Below are positions 10,660 through 26,480 of a stretch of 33,260 nt of DNA, piece after piece; position 1 is the first letter of the stretch; each line of letters opens with the position of its first letter. Source of the stretch: Thermoproteota archaeon (GTDB lineage: Archaea; Thermoproteota; Thermoprotei_A; EX4484-217-1); contig JAPDJU010000013.1 of the NCBI GenBank assembly GCA_029258915.1, positions 1 through 33,260 of the forward strand, given 5' to 3'. The position numbers and the translations under genes are program-made. The notes beneath the pieces are model-generated. The model saw nothing but the letters and a program-made list of their open reading frames with translations. It was not told where the DNA came from and did no database searches.

Positions 10660-10863
10660 TTAAAGTAGAGCATTATAGGAAACATGTTTAAATAAACCTT
10701 TATAACCGTTCACCTCTTCCGTAGCTTTGTGTATCAAATTATATCTTTCTATACATGCTACGGAAGGTTCATCACGGTTTATTATCCTCCAAGCCCACCC
10801 TGCGGCTCCAGAGAGGTTTCTGTAATCCCCAGAGCCATCGGCGAACTTGGATTCATCAAAGAC
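10660..10863 (-). pseudogene. Relic of a TnpB C-terminus (GC-rich, no start)
   Basis: An open minus-strand stretch of 67 codons without a start codon, much richer in G+C than its surroundings. It contains ADGSGDYRNLSGAAGWAW. The DGS...(A)AG pattern and the matching DNA (GGCGATGG ... GCCGCAGG) resemble the tail of the IS607 TnpB in this window (GDGSHAPNSAG; GGTGATGG ... TCCGCAGG). It runs into the stem-loop at 10705-10773 as the IS607 tnpB runs into its own. I read it as the 3' end of a lost minus-strand tnpB; an unrelated structured RNA gene is the alternative. Confidence 0.45.
10705..10773 (-). ncRNA. Solo TnpB guide-RNA-like stem-loop (copy A)
   Basis: Minus strand 5' to 3': GATGAAC, left arm CTTCCGTAGC (10757-10766), an inner pair ATGTAT/ATACAC-like, right arm GCTACGGAAG (10716-10725), then GGTGAACGGT (10705-10714). 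The 10-base arms are perfectly complementary. The same layout with different arms is found at 23906-23964 and 24199-24264. No complete tnpB lies on this strand here. Possible guide-like sequence would start at 10704 going left. RNA expression is not shown. Confidence 0.5.
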
Positions 10864-10921
10864 TCATAGCCCTCATTATCTCATCAGGCTCAGTATACAC
10901 CAGATGTCTTATATACGAGAT

Positions 10922-10930
10922 GTTATATAA
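10922..10930 (+). promoter_or_regulatory. TATA box for the RHH/TnpB-like pair
   Basis: GTTATATAA is centred about 23 bases before the ATG at 10949, and GAGGGTTATC directly before that ATG gives a ribosome-binding site. The pair therefore has its own promoter. Confidence 0.5.
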
Positions 10931-10948
10931 GTATTTCTGAGGGTTATC

Positions 10949-11104
10949 ATGGTTAAGAAGACTATTGATATACCTGATGAGCTTTGGGAGGAGTTCATGC
11001 TTAGAGCGGTAAAGAAGTTTGGATACTATGGTGCTATTAAGAAAGCTGTAAGAGAGGCAATTGAGTTATGGCTAGAAAGAGAGAGAAAATTAAGCCCACA
11101 ATAA
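10949..11104 (+). CDS. Short ribbon-helix-helix-like protein upstream of a TnpB-like gene
   Basis: A 51-residue protein. MVKKTIDIPDELWEEFMLRA is a typical ribbon-helix-helix opening (strand then helix), followed by GYYGAIKKAVREAIELWLER, a second amphipathic helix. GAGG lies 7 bases before the ATG. Its last 37 bases overlap the TnpB-like gene in another frame, so the two are translated from one message. It may repress the element or act as a partner of the nuclease-like protein; this is inference. Confidence 0.7.
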   Translation: MVKKTIDIPDELWEEFMLRAVKKFGYYGAIKKAVREAIELWLERERKLSPQ

Positions 11105-12114
11105 TCGGGAGGTTAACCATTAGTAGACCTGAAGATAGAGCTTGGCTTTTACTCCTTATGAGGAAGTTTAGAGAAGCAATAGAAATGGCACATCACCTAC
11201 TAAGAAAAGGATTAAAAGAAAGTGAAGTTAAGAGGAGAATAACAAAATACCTATCAAATGCTTGGTACTCAACTTCAGCTATTAAGAGAGCTAAGCTATA
11301 TCTTAATCAACCATATTTGAAGTTAAGGAAACCACAACTATTCTCAGTTGGAAGTAGAGATGAGAAAGGTAATAGAAATATTAAGCTAGTTAGTACAAGT
11401 GAAGTTCTAATTAAAATACCTCATGCAACTGGGGAACATAGTTGGCTTAAAGCTAGAGTTAAATTCGGAGAAAAACACATACCTATAATCAGAGAATTAG
11501 CTACAGGAAACTACAGTTATGGAGCTAGTATAGTATTAAAGGAGAAGAATAAAGAATTCCCTTTCTACCTTCACCTCCACGTCCCACTCGAACTCTACAT
11601 TAAATACATGAGAAAGGAGTCTGAAGCTAAGATAATGGGGCATATTGCTGGTTTTGATTTTAACCCTGATAGAATATGCATGGTAATAATAGACCAGAAC
11701 GGTATAATTAGAGATGTAAGGAATGAGCATTTCCCAGAGGTTACATCACATGGATTTTCAAGAGATAAAGCTAGAACTGTTAGGAGAGAAGCGGTCGCTA
11801 AGCTAGTTAAGTATGCTAGAGAGCATGGAGTAAAATACTACGTTATTGAAGACCTATCCAAACCAAAACCCAAAGGTACAAGGACTGCAAAGAGGAAGAT
11901 ATCTAGAATGGCTTTAAGAGAGTTTATACAGCAAATGGAAGTACTAGTGCCTAAAGTGGATGGAGTATTAATTAAAGTCAACCCAGCATACTCATCAGTA
12001 AGTGCTAGGATAATAGCAGAAGACCTAGGTTTAGACATTCACACAGCATCAGCATACATAATAGCACTAAGAAGCATAAAAAGATACGCAACGACACAGA
12101 AAGTTATAACCTAA
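11068..12114 (+). CDS. TnpB-related RuvC-fold protein without zinc finger
   Basis: A 348-residue OrfB/TnpB relative. RuvC-like acidic residues are all visible: Asp197 (IAGFDFNPDRICMVIID), Glu261 (YYVIEDLSKPK) and Asp323 (LGLDIHTASAYIIALR). The CxxC...CxxC zinc finger that TnpB has between the NP..S motif (VNPAYSSVSA, about 304-313) and the last Asp is absent, with only about 10 residues in between. There is no tnpA transposase beside it. It is preceded by an overlapping RHH gene and followed 20 bases later by the tail of a thi4 gene. Known TnpB proteins are RNA-guided nucleases; this zinc-finger-less branch is less studied. Confidence 0.8.
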   Translation: MARKREKIKPTIIGRLTISRPEDRAWLLLLMRKFREAIEMAHHLLRKGLKESEVKRRITKYLSNAWYSTSAIKRAKLYLNQPYLKLRKPQLFSVGSRDEKGNRNIKLVSTSEVLIKIPHATGEHSWLKARVKFGEKHIPIIRELATGNYSYGASIVLKEKNKEFPFYLHLHVPLELYIKYMRKESEAKIMGHIAGFDFNPDRICMVIIDQNGIIRDVRNEHFPEVTSHGFSRDKARTVRREAVAKLVKYAREHGVKYYVIEDLSKPKPKGTRTAKRKISRMALREFIQQMEVLVPKVDGVLIKVNPAYSSVSARIIAEDLGLDIHTASAYIIALRSIKRYATTQKVIT

Positions 12115-12135
12115 AGTTTCTGCCCCTTACTTGTA

Positions 12136-23062: not shown

Positions 23063-24046
23063 ATGCTGTTAATGATTCCCTTGCTAGGCGCTTTGCTTAG
23101 TGGTTTTATCTGTGGTATGCTTGGATACTATGTTCAAAGGTATGGTGTTACAACATTAAGTTTCACAATAGCGCACTCCGCATTAGCTGGCGCTGCAATA
23201 TCTCTTGTTCTAGGATTTAATACTACGCTGTTCACACTATTCTTTGCTGTAGCATCAGCTTTACTCATAGGCTATTTAACAAGTAAATCACCTATAAGGC
23301 GTGAGCTAATTTGCATGGGCCTATTCTCCTTATTAAACGCAGTAGCTATTCTAATGCTCTACATGTCAAGCACCAACGTACTATCCACAGTACAGTTATC
23401 AACCATACTATGGGGTAGTGTACTAGCAATAACTTGCGAGAAAATAATTGCCATAGTGACTATAGCAGCGACTTTTCTAGTATATGCTGTAATTTTTAAG
23501 CCGCAAATAGATGCAATACTTTTTGATCAGAAATTAGCTGAAGCAGAAGGAGTTAATGTAAAATTGCACAGTACAATACTTCTACTCTTTGTAGGCTCAG
23601 CAATAGCCATAATCCTTAGAATAACAGGCGGTTTCCTTGTTTTCTCTCTACTGTATAACCCTGTTGCATCGGCTTTACTATTGTCAAAGAGAGCAAATAT
23701 TCAGCAACTAATTTCACCTATACTAGGAAGCAGCGTTGCAATTGCAGGTCTTTTCGCTAGTTTCATGTATAACTTACCTGTTGGAGCATCAATAGCTCTA
23801 CTATCATCAGTTACTCTTCTACTATCTTACGTTTCAAGAGTTACGATAAATTACATGCTAGCACAGCGAAGCGTACGGAGCAAAGAAGGTATTGGGGAAG
23901 CTTTTACCGTTCACCTAAACCGTGTCCTCATCTATCAAAATGTATCAGACACTGTTAGGTTCATTACAGTCCCCGCTGAGCTACCTACGGGAACAGGGCT
24001 CCCCTCAGAAACCCAGCGGTCACCAATAAATTTATTAGATTCATAA
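23063..24046 (+). CDS. ABC-3 type metal permease, ZnuB-like, with foreign C-terminal tail
   Basis: 327 residues with about eight membrane helices and the family's central pattern (LSFTIAHSALAGAAISLVLG, LWGSVLAIT, AEAEGVNVKLHS, TGGFLVFSLLYNPVASALLL). Membrane helices end near residue 263 (VTLLLSYVSRVTINYM). The last 47 residues, from about 281, are read antisense through the relic transposon end described at 23906-24047, so this tail is not of permease origin. The core should still be able to transport. Last gene of the operon. Confidence 0.85.
   Translation: MLLMIPLLGALLSGFICGMLGYYVQRYGVTTLSFTIAHSALAGAAISLVLGFNTTLFTLFFAVASALLIGYLTSKSPIRRELICMGLFSLLNAVAILMLYMSSTNVLSTVQLSTILWGSVLAITCEKIIAIVTIAATFLVYAVIFKPQIDAILFDQKLAEAEGVNVKLHSTILLLFVGSAIAIILRITGGFLVFSLLYNPVASALLLSKRANIQQLISPILGSSVAIAGLFASFMYNLPVGASIALLSSVTLLLSYVSRVTINYMLAQRSVRSKEGIGEAFTVHLNRVLIYQNVSDTVRFITVPAELPTGTGLPSETQRSPINLLDS
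23906..23964 (-). ncRNA. Solo TnpB guide-RNA-like stem-loop (copy B)
   Basis: Minus strand: ATGAAC (23959-23964), left arm ACCTAACAGTGTC (23948-23960), loop with TTTGATA, right arm GACACGGTTTAGGT (23913-23926), then GGTGAACGGT (23906-23915). The arms pair with one bulge/mismatch region. From TTTGATA to GGTGAACGGT the spacing (17 bases) and the final ten bases equal copy A. It lies inside the 3' end of the ABC permease gene, on the other strand. Confidence 0.5.
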
Positions 24047-24047: not shown

Positions 24048-24198
24048 TTTACAAGTTTTAAAGGCATACAGCTTCAGCACATATCTTAGCATTAAGATAT
24101 CTAGGACTCAAAACCAAAACAAGTAATTAAAAGTATTGTAGAAATAATTAAAAGTCACGCAACTAGCCCTCCATTTTCAGAGCTAATTAGCCCTACTA

Positions 24199-24390
24199 AC
24201 CGTTCCTCCCTAGGTGGTCATTTCAATTATTTTATATAAGTTCATGATCACACCTAGGGGTTCCACCTCGCCCATAGGGATTTAGGTATCCCTATGGGGT
24301 CATGGGTGGCATTCGTCTCCAACGGCATGGGAGACACATCTACGTTACTTCCTGCGGAGTTCGGAGCATGGCTCCCATCACCCCGCAGGG
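24199..24390 (-). ncRNA. Candidate omega/re RNA scaffold at the 3' end of tnpB (contains copy C)
   Basis: Known TnpB guide RNAs start in the last part of tnpB and end in the right end of the element. Here, on the minus strand, I see GGAGC/GCTCC and TCTCC/GGAGA hairpins near 24310-24375, a perfect 10-base stem TCCCTATGGG/CCCATAGGGA pattern (24271-24280 with 24289-24298, loop 8), then copy C: GGAACC (24259-24264), arm CCTAGGTG (24251-24258), loop, arm CACCTAGG (24209-24216), GGAACGGT (24199-24206). The guide would read onward from 24198 to lower numbers. Transcription is not shown. Confidence 0.55.
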
Positions 24391-25507
24391 CTTTGAAAAG
24401 CAAGTTCCAGCAAGCAACAGCATCTCGATGCCAAAATTCTCCTCCCTTACTACACTTACCAATCCTAGAACCATTACTGTAGGTTATTGGAGCATTGTGA
24501 ATTGGGCATAGTTTTGATGTATTCCTTGGATTAACATATATTACTGGTACGCCATACTCTCTAGCCTTTTCCTCTATTGCCCTCTGAATACCTCTGAAAC
24601 TCGCTTGAAATATCCTATGACGTAGCTGTTTATCCTTTATCCTCTTTATCATGTTATTAGCTACATGTTTACCCAACTTCTCAAGAACTATGGCATATTG
24701 TTTCTCATAGGCAGTCTTAACGATTATGTTAGCTATCTTCCATTTAATATCAAGTTTCTTTTTCCTCTCCTTTAGTTTCCTCACAGCCTTCCTCTTAATC
24801 CTAGATTTCTTACCATATAATTTATCGTATTTTTCCTGAATCCTTTTCCTACGGTAATAGTATCCGAGTACGAGCTTCTCAGTATTGGTTTCAAAGAGGA
24901 AGGTTAAGTTATCAACTAGTACGGTAACATTGTTTTCGTTAACGTCAACTGGTATGTAGCCCCTAGGCTTATACTCTTCAACCTCTTTAATGAAAGATAG
25001 GTAGATAACTAACTGTCTACTCCTCTTATCAAGCTTTACCTTAGTTTCACTAGCTAGCTTCCAACCACAATTAATGTATTTCCAATACTGTTTATGAGGT
25101 TCAAAGTCCACTGTTATCCATCCCTTGTGGGTAACCACCTTGATCGATGTTAGCCCATTAGGCTTCCATAGGTGGTTGTCAAGCCAGATACTGACCTTCC
25201 TAACCTCTGGGTAATCACTCTCAGCTAGTCCTAGTTTCTTTAACCGTAAGAAGCTCCTAACCCTAGTACTAGCGTCTTGACATGCCGTGTAGACGTAGTG
25301 TGAAGGTAGTTGAGGGTAGAGACCCCTCATTTCACGGTACTTTAATGCTTTGAGCCTAGTGAAGCTCCTAATACTATTTCTAACAGCGTATATTACAAGT
25401 TGTTTGACCATATTACGATACATACCTTCAAGCTCAACGAAGACTCCGAATATCCTTCTAGTTAACTTAATGCTCCTAACTATGACTATTCTAACTACTC
25501 TAGTCAT
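24254..25507 (-). CDS. tnpB: TnpB of the IS607 element (RNA-guided nuclease family)
   Basis: 417 residues. RuvC residues are Asp188 (YIPVDVNENNVTV), Glu276 (YAIVLEKLGKHVA) and Asp362 (FWHRDAVACWNLL). The zinc-finger region is the crenarchaeal variant SKLCPIHNAP ... GKCSKGGEFWHRD, with C334, H337 and C352 and no fourth cysteine. After the RuvC domain a 45-residue tail (RGDGSHAPNSAGS and on) is encoded by the structured DNA that should also give the guide RNA. Its ATG overlaps the end of tnpA. Relatives cut DNA at guide-matched sites and help the element persist. Confidence 0.88.
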   Translation of the reverse strand: MTRVVRIVIVRSIKLTRRIFGVFVELEGMYRNMVKQLVIYAVRNSIRSFTRLKALKYREMRGLYPQLPSHYVYTACQDASTRVRSFLRLKKLGLAESDYPEVRKVSIWLDNHLWKPNGLTSIKVVTHKGWITVDFEPHKQYWKYINCGWKLASETKVKLDKRSRQLVIYLSFIKEVEEYKPRGYIPVDVNENNVTVLVDNLTFLFETNTEKLVLGYYYRRKRIQEKYDKLYGKKSRIKRKAVRKLKERKKKLDIKWKIANIIVKTAYEKQYAIVLEKLGKHVANNMIKRIKDKQLRHRIFQASFRGIQRAIEEKAREYGVPVIYVNPRNTSKLCPIHNAPITYSNGSRIGKCSKGGEFWHRDAVACWNLLFKALRGDGSHAPNSAGSNVDVSPMPLETNATHDPIGIPKSLWARWNP

Positions 25508-26135
25508 TCTTCTTTACCTCTTGCAGTAACTGCTTAAAACCTTGAATGAGCTTCTTTTTCTTATGACTCCTCATACCGTAGAGCTTGCTAGCAAATGAAG
25601 TAACTATTGCTAGTAAGTCCTCTACTAGTTCTTGGTAAGCGTCTTTAGGCTCCTCGCCATAGACAACTTCGATTTTGGCACCGCACTGCTTAAAGAAGTA
25701 CTCTAGGTACTCAAAGCCAAACCTTGTCAATCTATCCTTATAGGTAATGACAACTACATCTACTTGTTTGTTTACTACATAGTTGAAGAGTTTCATTAAG
25801 CCTCTACGATTAGTTTTCAATCCACTAGCTACATCACTTAGGACATCTACTACTTTATAGCCTTTAGCCATGCAGTATTGAGTTAAGTACTCTATCTGTC
25901 TTTCTAGGTCTTTTCTCTGGTCTGAGGAGCTAACACGAGCATATATGATTGCTCTAATTTCCCTTGTCACTACTCCGCTTAATAGTCTCTTTACTTCGCT
26001 TTCTGGTATACGGTATTTTCCTCCAAGTGTCCGTACTGCTCTTATCCTCCCCTCCTCAATCCATCTACGAAGAGTAACATAACTAACACCAAGAAGCCTA
26101 CAAGCCTCCTTAGGTCTCAGCAAACGTTCGCTCAT
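25500..26135 (-). CDS. tnpA: TnpA of the IS607 element (MerR-HTH serine recombinase)
   Basis: 211 residues. A MerR-like helix-turn-helix (LRPKEACRLLGVSYVTLRRW, residues 6-25) is followed by a serine-resolvase domain with the catalytic YARVSSSDQRKDLERQ (Ser near 69-71) and VVITYKDRLTRFGFEYLE, the standard IS607 arrangement. TTTATATAGG at about 26167-26176 (minus strand) is the likely TATA box. It looks complete. Confidence 0.9.
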   Translation of the reverse strand: MSERLLRPKEACRLLGVSYVTLRRWIEEGRIRAVRTLGGKYRIPESEVKRLLSGVVTREIRAIIYARVSSSDQRKDLERQIEYLTQYCMAKGYKVVDVLSDVASGLKTNRRGLMKLFNYVVNKQVDVVVITYKDRLTRFGFEYLEYFFKQCGAKIEVVYGEEPKDAYQELVEDLLAIVTSFASKLYGMRSHKKKKLIQGFKQLLQEVKKND

Positions 26136-26157
26136 TCTTATCCTTAAACGTACTTGA

Positions 26158-26480
26158 ATATCAACCTATATAAACTTTCCCTCTGAACATCAAAATGTAT
26201 TCTGCCTTTACTTCCCCTTCAACTATTCTTGCAGCCTCTATATAATTGAACGGTTTAAGAATACCTTTACCCTTTAACCTGAGAACCCGGAAAAACACCA
26301 CCATAAACAGCTGCTTCTAATATTTTCCTAACATTTATGATTTTTCATGCTTCCAAAACACCGCCTTTTATGATCGTTTCCCGTAAACAGCTATTTCACT
26401 GTTTTTCTTTAAAATATCAATTCTTACATTAGCATTTAAAACCTTTTTAGCTGCACCTTTCACTGAGACCACGGCTCAAA
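26158..26480 (-). pseudogene. Degenerate gene of unknown family
   Basis: Minus-strand pieces in three frames are open and look coding: KGAAKKVLNANVRIDILKKN with SEIAVYG, then IIKGGVLEA and NVRKILEAAVYGGVFPGS, then LKPFNYIEAARIVEGEVKAE and YILMFRGKVYIG, broken by at least three stops or shifts. I do not recognise the protein. It ends against the IS607 tnpA promoter, so the element may have inserted in or next to it. Confidence 0.45.

Follow-up and report, generated by a model that had tools for sequence, protein, structure and literature searches.

Stem-loops at IS607-type transposon ends of a Thermoproteota archaeon: a probable TnpB guide-RNA scaffold and its probable counterparts beside a divergent TnpB-like gene

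Introduction

Three stem-loops lie on the minus strand of the stretch of DNA analysed here (33,260 nucleotides, hereafter the window), which is contig 10 of the 1.6-Mb genome of a heat-loving archaeon. An earlier note on this DNA located them correctly, and their exact 3' ends are 10706 (copy A), 23907 (copy B) and 24200 (copy C); the note took all three for one family tied to the 3' ends of tnpB genes, and proposed copy C as the guide-RNA scaffold of an IS607 TnpB. An archaeal TnpB with an RNA from its 3' end has been found to cut DNA (PMC10640517), and IS607 TnpBs use AGGAG or GAGGG as target-adjacent motifs (TAMs) (PMC11061315). The locus raises the question of whether these stem-loops are scaffolds of RNA-guided nucleases and, if so, to which nuclease genes they belong.

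Results

Copy C covers the 3' end of an IS607 tnpB

Copy C forms the right end of an IS607 element, the parts of which are as follows.

24200-26206, minus strand: IS607 element of C, with tnpA, tnpB and the RNA between its ends
25500-26135, minus strand: tnpA, IS607 serine transposase (NF033518, 240 bits, cut-off 110)
24254-25507, minus strand: tnpB, 417 aa, RuvC triad D188/E276/D362 (PF07282, TIGR01766)
24200-24395, minus strand: copy C, guide-RNA scaffold over the tnpB 3' end (six covarying helices in alignment A4, pair counts)
24271-24298, minus strand: 10-bp hairpin, helix 5 of the C scaffold (pair counts)
24204-24200, minus strand: right-end AACGG, the last letters of the C scaffold
24180-24199, minus strand: expected guide of C, ~20 nt of host DNA immediately beyond the right end (this flank differs between copies; the length is that of known TnpBs)
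26200-26206, minus strand: left end of the element, GGCAGAA on the minus strand (by comparison with the left ends of relatives)

The tnpA product has Resolvase and HTH_17 domains, as an IS607-family serine transposase with an N-terminal HTH does, and the tnpB product carries the TnpB signature, with 74 bits for TIGR01766 (cut-off 32) and 48.6 bits for PF07282 (cut-off 26.3); the guided_TnpB model gave 90.9 bits, under its cut-off of 100, and this was counted against the best explanation. The nearest named relatives of this tnpB are in metagenome-assembled genomes of Acidilobaceae and Desulfurococcales. Judged from the occupied site, the ends of the element are of the IS607 type, with AACGG on the right and GG before CAGAA on the left, where the relatives have GGGGCAGAAA.

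Three tnpB copies in genome G003, and the tnpB genes of eight named relatives, carry C-type RNA at their 3' ends, and 12 sequences of it make up alignment A4. In this alignment C has 43 pairs in six helices, and 95.0% of the cells are paired. Changes on both sides of a pair were counted in 20 pairs and 82 cells, compared to 14.4 pairs and 26.0+-4.1 cells in shuffled alignments (0/500 for both measures), and slid controls of 1-3 columns left 28.9-49.1% of cells paired with at most 19 double-changed cells. The 10-base hairpin that had been pointed out at 24271-24298 is real, and 5 of its 10 pairs have double changes; the terminal stem of C likewise has five compensated pairs. The earlier note had the copy start at the tnpB stop. 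The RNA is indeed the 3' end of the IS607 tnpB, but its conserved structure starts ~140 nt before the stop, within the coding region that holds most of the 196-nt RNA, and the stop codon itself (TAG, 24254-24256) sits within the terminal stem.

The bases past the RNA were compared between copies, as had been proposed as a check. The base after AACGG is variable across 33 copies (14 tnpB-type, 7 C-type miniature and 12 B-type), and the bases beyond carry almost no information, with a mild preference for T at +1 in the B-type copies. Because this base varies, the T at 24199 lies outside the border; conservation ends at AACGG, and the scaffold/guide border that had been put at AACGGT was therefore right within one base. 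Copy C is structured, overlaps the tnpB 3' end and stops at the right end of the element with variable DNA beyond it. The selected structure and the variable DNA past the end are as expected for a TnpB guide-RNA scaffold and support the role that the earlier note had suggested for C. A scan of the window with Rfam 15 gave no family at the gathering threshold, the RNA of C included.

The genome of the window has ten more TnpB genes or remnants (L003-L012). Two of them (L003 and L004) have a terminal stem followed by an AACGG end, and a different type of hairpin, GCCCG..CGGGCAACCAC, ends L006, L007, L010 and L011. In G003, the 3' end of one tnpB (L039, G003:C9:11765-11810) has a partial C-type scaffold followed by a different terminal stem that ends in GGGAAACGG, which looks like a swapped guide-RNA end.

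Copies A and B belong to a separate RNA family

10706-10857, minus strand: copy A, guide-RNA-like RNA of the divergent family, ending in AACGG at 10710-10706 (model R1 built without A, E 5.3e-13)
10949-11104, plus strand: small ORF of 51 aa between RNA A and the nuclease gene (translation)
11068-12114, plus strand: TnpB-like RuvC protein of 348 aa with no visible zinc finger, in divergent orientation to RNA A (protein alignment and profile matches)
12117-12126, minus strand: left end of element A, GGGGCAGAAA (the sole match in the window; a chance match is not rare, yet it is placed as in relatives)
10706-12126: element A, from RNA A to the left end
23907-24024, minus strand: copy B, guide-RNA-like RNA of the divergent family, ending in AACGG at 23911-23907 (DNA searches, folds, model R1)
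24062-24124, plus strand: remnant of a TnpB-like C-terminus (RHTASAHILALRYLG..), in divergent orientation to RNA B (tblastn match of 71% over 21 residues, E 3e-4)

Model R1 was built from alignment A6 of 10 relatives, with B in and A out. It matched B, which is in the model, at E 2.4e-29 and A at the E-value listed above; C was matched at just E 0.69, and a single family of A, B and C was rejected on this result. Alignment A6 has 30 pairs with 23 double-changed cells, compared to 6.3+-2.0 in shuffled alignments, and the covariation counts and model matches place all three stem-loops above chance. The argument from compensating arms to selection on RNA structure, made in the earlier note, is upheld by the counts for C. 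A/B and C have in common the terminal stem with its end motif, as well as the transposon ends, but not the whole fold. The supposedly shared GAAC-type motif does not hold, because in A and B it is part of a conserved GATGAAC internal loop to which the GGAAC of C does not correspond. Nor are all three copies tied to tnpB 3' ends, given that RNAs of the A/B kind stand upstream of and opposite to their gene, or alone.

Consensus folding (RNAalifold) of a wide divergent set returned the closing stem only, and was replaced by folds of single sequences and the narrower alignment A6. In the 22 close loci, the RNAs lie before the start codon on the other strand, start with GGTGAC or similar and end in AACGG or a variant, and a TATA-like box is present 28-32 nt before the RNA in 17 of these loci. 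Single folds have a first hairpin followed by ACCGU-GAUGAA-[stem-loop]-GA-ACGG. The closing pairs reach the edge of the element, although other pairs replace them in some minimum-energy folds, and the first closing pair changes from CG to GC in five sequences.

The divergent RNA accompanies a TnpB-like protein

DNA searches revealed that the B-like RNA is repeated in G003, where two copies adjoin an ORF read in the opposite direction. Of 398 genomes in the phylum, 49 encode the protein of this ORF (~371 aa), and searches of it against Pfam, NCBIfam and PADLOC gave no matches. Across alignment A1 (16 members, including the one in the window), D209, E273 and D346 are invariant in the RuvC-like contexts GGVDVN, FLENP and LDRHTASAY, and the A protein (11068-12114) has these three acidic residues of a RuvC D-E-D triad. 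A profile of the family matched TnpBs with a probability of 96.8% and E 2e-10. The A protein reached 31.7 bits with TIGR01766 (cut-off 32) and 30.3 bits with guided_TnpB (cut-off 100, E 3e-7), with profile matches to these two at E 2e-7 to 3e-7 and to TIGR01765 at E 7e-7; the low guided_TnpB score was again counted against the best explanation. In the zinc-finger (TNB) region between RuvC II and III, the alignment has no CxxC pairs and neither the family nor the A protein matched PF07282; the zinc finger is present in many, not all, known TnpBs (PMC10711439). A profile search of the PDB with the divergent protein gave nothing significant (Cas12f at E 0.29), and the AF2 model of the single A protein was useless (pLDDT 38), which was counted against the best explanation.

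The A protein gene has no guide RNA on its own strand at its 3' end; its RNA is upstream and divergent. The same arrangement was found throughout: R1 RNA is present at 28 of 28 protein loci (L095-L121 and L124; L103 weakly, E 0.19), always upstream and on the opposite strand, and phylum-wide 29 of 30 R1 matches beside a listed gene match are upstream and opposite. At the sole exception, G373:C102:564-1549, the TnpB-like gene is truncated and is followed by the RNA on the same strand. In 25 genomes the RNA and the protein are both present, compared to 3.7 expected (Fisher p 2e-21, uncorrected for relatedness). Related genomes, which the earlier note had suggested searching, show covariation and a link of C to tnpB ends, but link A and B to the divergent gene instead.

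In the distant members (L117-L121 and A of the window), a small gene lies between the RNA and the nuclease gene, and its product may autoregulate the divergent promoter. The small genes of L117-L121 are DUF2080/MazE-like by weak matches; the 51-aa ORF of the window had no significant Pfam match and looks like a ribbon-helix-helix DNA-binding protein. In L095-L107, a palindrome (GGGGAATCCCC or similar) immediately precedes the TnpB-like gene's start codon, beside the TATA box of the RNA, and could be an operator. No viral, phage or plasmid homologues of the divergent system were found: ten viral matches to the RNA motif were chance matches, and weak plasmid matches were bacterial TnpB-related proteins, one of them encoded immediately after an IS607 transposase gene, which is the usual gene order.

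Shared transposon ends and solo copies

Left ends of GGGGCAGAAA or close variants were found in the IS607 relatives, in many divergent elements and in miniature elements, together with AACGG right ends. Since all three kinds have these IS607-type ends (GGGGCAGAAA...AACGG), IS607 TnpA probably moves them all; some divergent subgroups have different left ends, e.g. GGGCTGTTT, and may use other transposases. One divergent element splits a gene that we take to be mutY-like, and joining the flanks restores LPGVG-PYTAGALLSFAYGKP within 1 nt. In the window, an ABC-3 permease ORF (23063-24046) runs into element B, and the insertion at ~23906 probably replaced the original C-terminal end of this ORF.

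Solo copies were studied in the closed 1.67-Mb chromosome of G116, because copies in G003 lie at contig ends and their solo status is uncertain. G116 contains seven near-identical copies of ~300 bp that consist of a left end, the promoter region, the RNA and a right end; they have no protein gene and are followed by different DNA in each case, and two protein-coding copies are present elsewhere in the genome. These ~300-bp copies appear to be guide-RNA-only mobile elements. Solo copies of the C-type RNA were found as well (L014 and L015 in the genome of the window, L024-L026 and L034). Nearly all miniature copies have three or more Gs before the CAG of the left end, and the occupied right junction is AACGG.

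Discussion

These data add C to the guide RNAs already known for IS607 TnpBs. The explanation that best fits the whole, and that we regard as quite likely, is that the 3' end of the IS607 tnpB yields C as a guide-RNA (omega/reRNA) scaffold, and that A and B serve as such scaffolds for a distant branch of TnpB-like nucleases that has no zinc finger. The IS607 TnpB and reRNA of ISFba1 and relatives, with RAGATH-18-derived RNAs, similarly combine a serine transposase with TnpB, an RNA at the tnpB 3' end that reaches the right end, and G-rich insertion sites (PMC11061315); however, the RNA of C is below Rfam thresholds and differs in sequence, and its activity is a prediction.

Because the hairpins stand exactly at transposon ends, and are kept by the miniature copies, they could be DNA transposition signals, i.e., end structures bound by the transposase, rather than RNA scaffolds. 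This is highly improbable for a structure that in C spans 196 nt and six helices mostly inside the tnpB coding region, that is present at one end only and that tolerates G-U pairs; moreover, a TATA-like box stands upstream of the A/B RNAs, and IS607 transposases bind double-stranded DNA at short direct motifs (PMC6188088). A and B, which lie where the divergent protein gene has its promoter region, could also be leader or antisense RNAs that regulate this gene, and not guides. Antisense RNAs of archaeal transposons are on record. We consider such a role unlikely, however, because the A/B RNAs are directed away from the gene without overlapping its coding part, stop exactly at the transposon edge, and have the same terminal architecture and the same end as RNA C, which is linked to tnpB.

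The solo copies call for a separate judgement, as B and the G116 miniature elements may be internally deleted debris in which the RNA is a functionless passenger. The copies within a genome are nearly identical, and their conservation could for this reason be explained by recent amplification alone; in addition, L015 has a damaged end (AACAG), and the protein at B is a remnant. On the other side, separate solo families in several genomes keep not only the ends but the promoter region and the whole scaffold, and the same genomes hold intact nuclease genes. Debris is a serious possibility, though one that we lean against.

From the guide-RNA explanation we infer a mechanism that includes transcription, binding, cleavage, a target-adjacent motif and transposase sharing for the A, B and C systems. 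TnpB would bind the C scaffold and use the ~20 nt after AACGG, the host DNA beside the insertion, as its guide, and the guided TnpB would cleave site copies in which the element is missing; the element would thereby be kept or recopied. The RNA of the A/B kind, which lies upstream of the protein gene, is directed away from it and ends at the same AACGG right end, would be a gene in its own right with a promoter to itself. Internal deletion would produce mobile elements of promoter and guide RNA only, which would probably borrow the nuclease in trans, a plausible though unproven step. IS607 of H. pylori inserts at (G)GG and has GG at its ends (PMC6188088). If the TAM were of the GGG kind, near the published GAGGG, empty sites would be cut and occupied sites spared; C fits poorly here because only two Gs precede its left end. 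We see about an even chance that A and B represent a widespread archaeal branch of TnpB-like proteins without a zinc finger, with an independent guide-RNA gene transcribed divergently from a shared promoter region, with IS607-type ends, and with guide-RNA-only mobile elements that use the nuclease in trans to secure their insertion sites.

Other RNA-guided systems resemble parts of this arrangement. In IscB/HEARO elements, the omega RNA gene lies upstream of the nuclease gene and not at its 3' end, as in A/B, but on the same strand and with another nuclease family, whereas A and B are divergent. MITE/PATE-type miniature elements of IS families are short, internally deleted, keep both ends and are moved in trans; the solo elements are likewise short and internally deleted with both ends, but have IS607-type ends and retain the promoter region and a complete guide-RNA-like scaffold of the divergent TnpB-like nuclease. 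SisTnpB1 of the Sulfolobus islandicus IS200/IS605 family is archaeal and has a RuvC D-E-D triad, as here, and a putative RNA gene at the tnpB 3' end with variable sequence beyond it; however, its transposase family is another one, its TAM is AT-rich (TTTAA), and its RNA is on the tnpB strand, whereas the A/B RNAs are on the opposite strand (PMC10640517). The A/B kind, in which a guide RNA with its own promoter is directed away from the nuclease gene, is apparently undescribed: no account of the divergent architecture or of IS607-ended guide-only elements was found in searches of an open full-text library, and its novelty is provisional.

Well-studied TnpB systems take their guide RNA from the 3' end of the nuclease gene, which ties RNA and protein together. 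Separate, divergently read genes for the RNA and the protein, as there appear to be here, are a plausible intermediate towards systems in which many guides serve one nuclease, such as CRISPR. Guide-only mobile elements, if this reading is true, would be natural multi-guide sets that supply a single nuclease in trans, an idea that can be put to a direct test in closed archaeal genomes. The divergent proteins (~350-375 aa, from thermophiles, zinc-finger-less and mostly outside curated families) are candidate compact RNA-guided nucleases.
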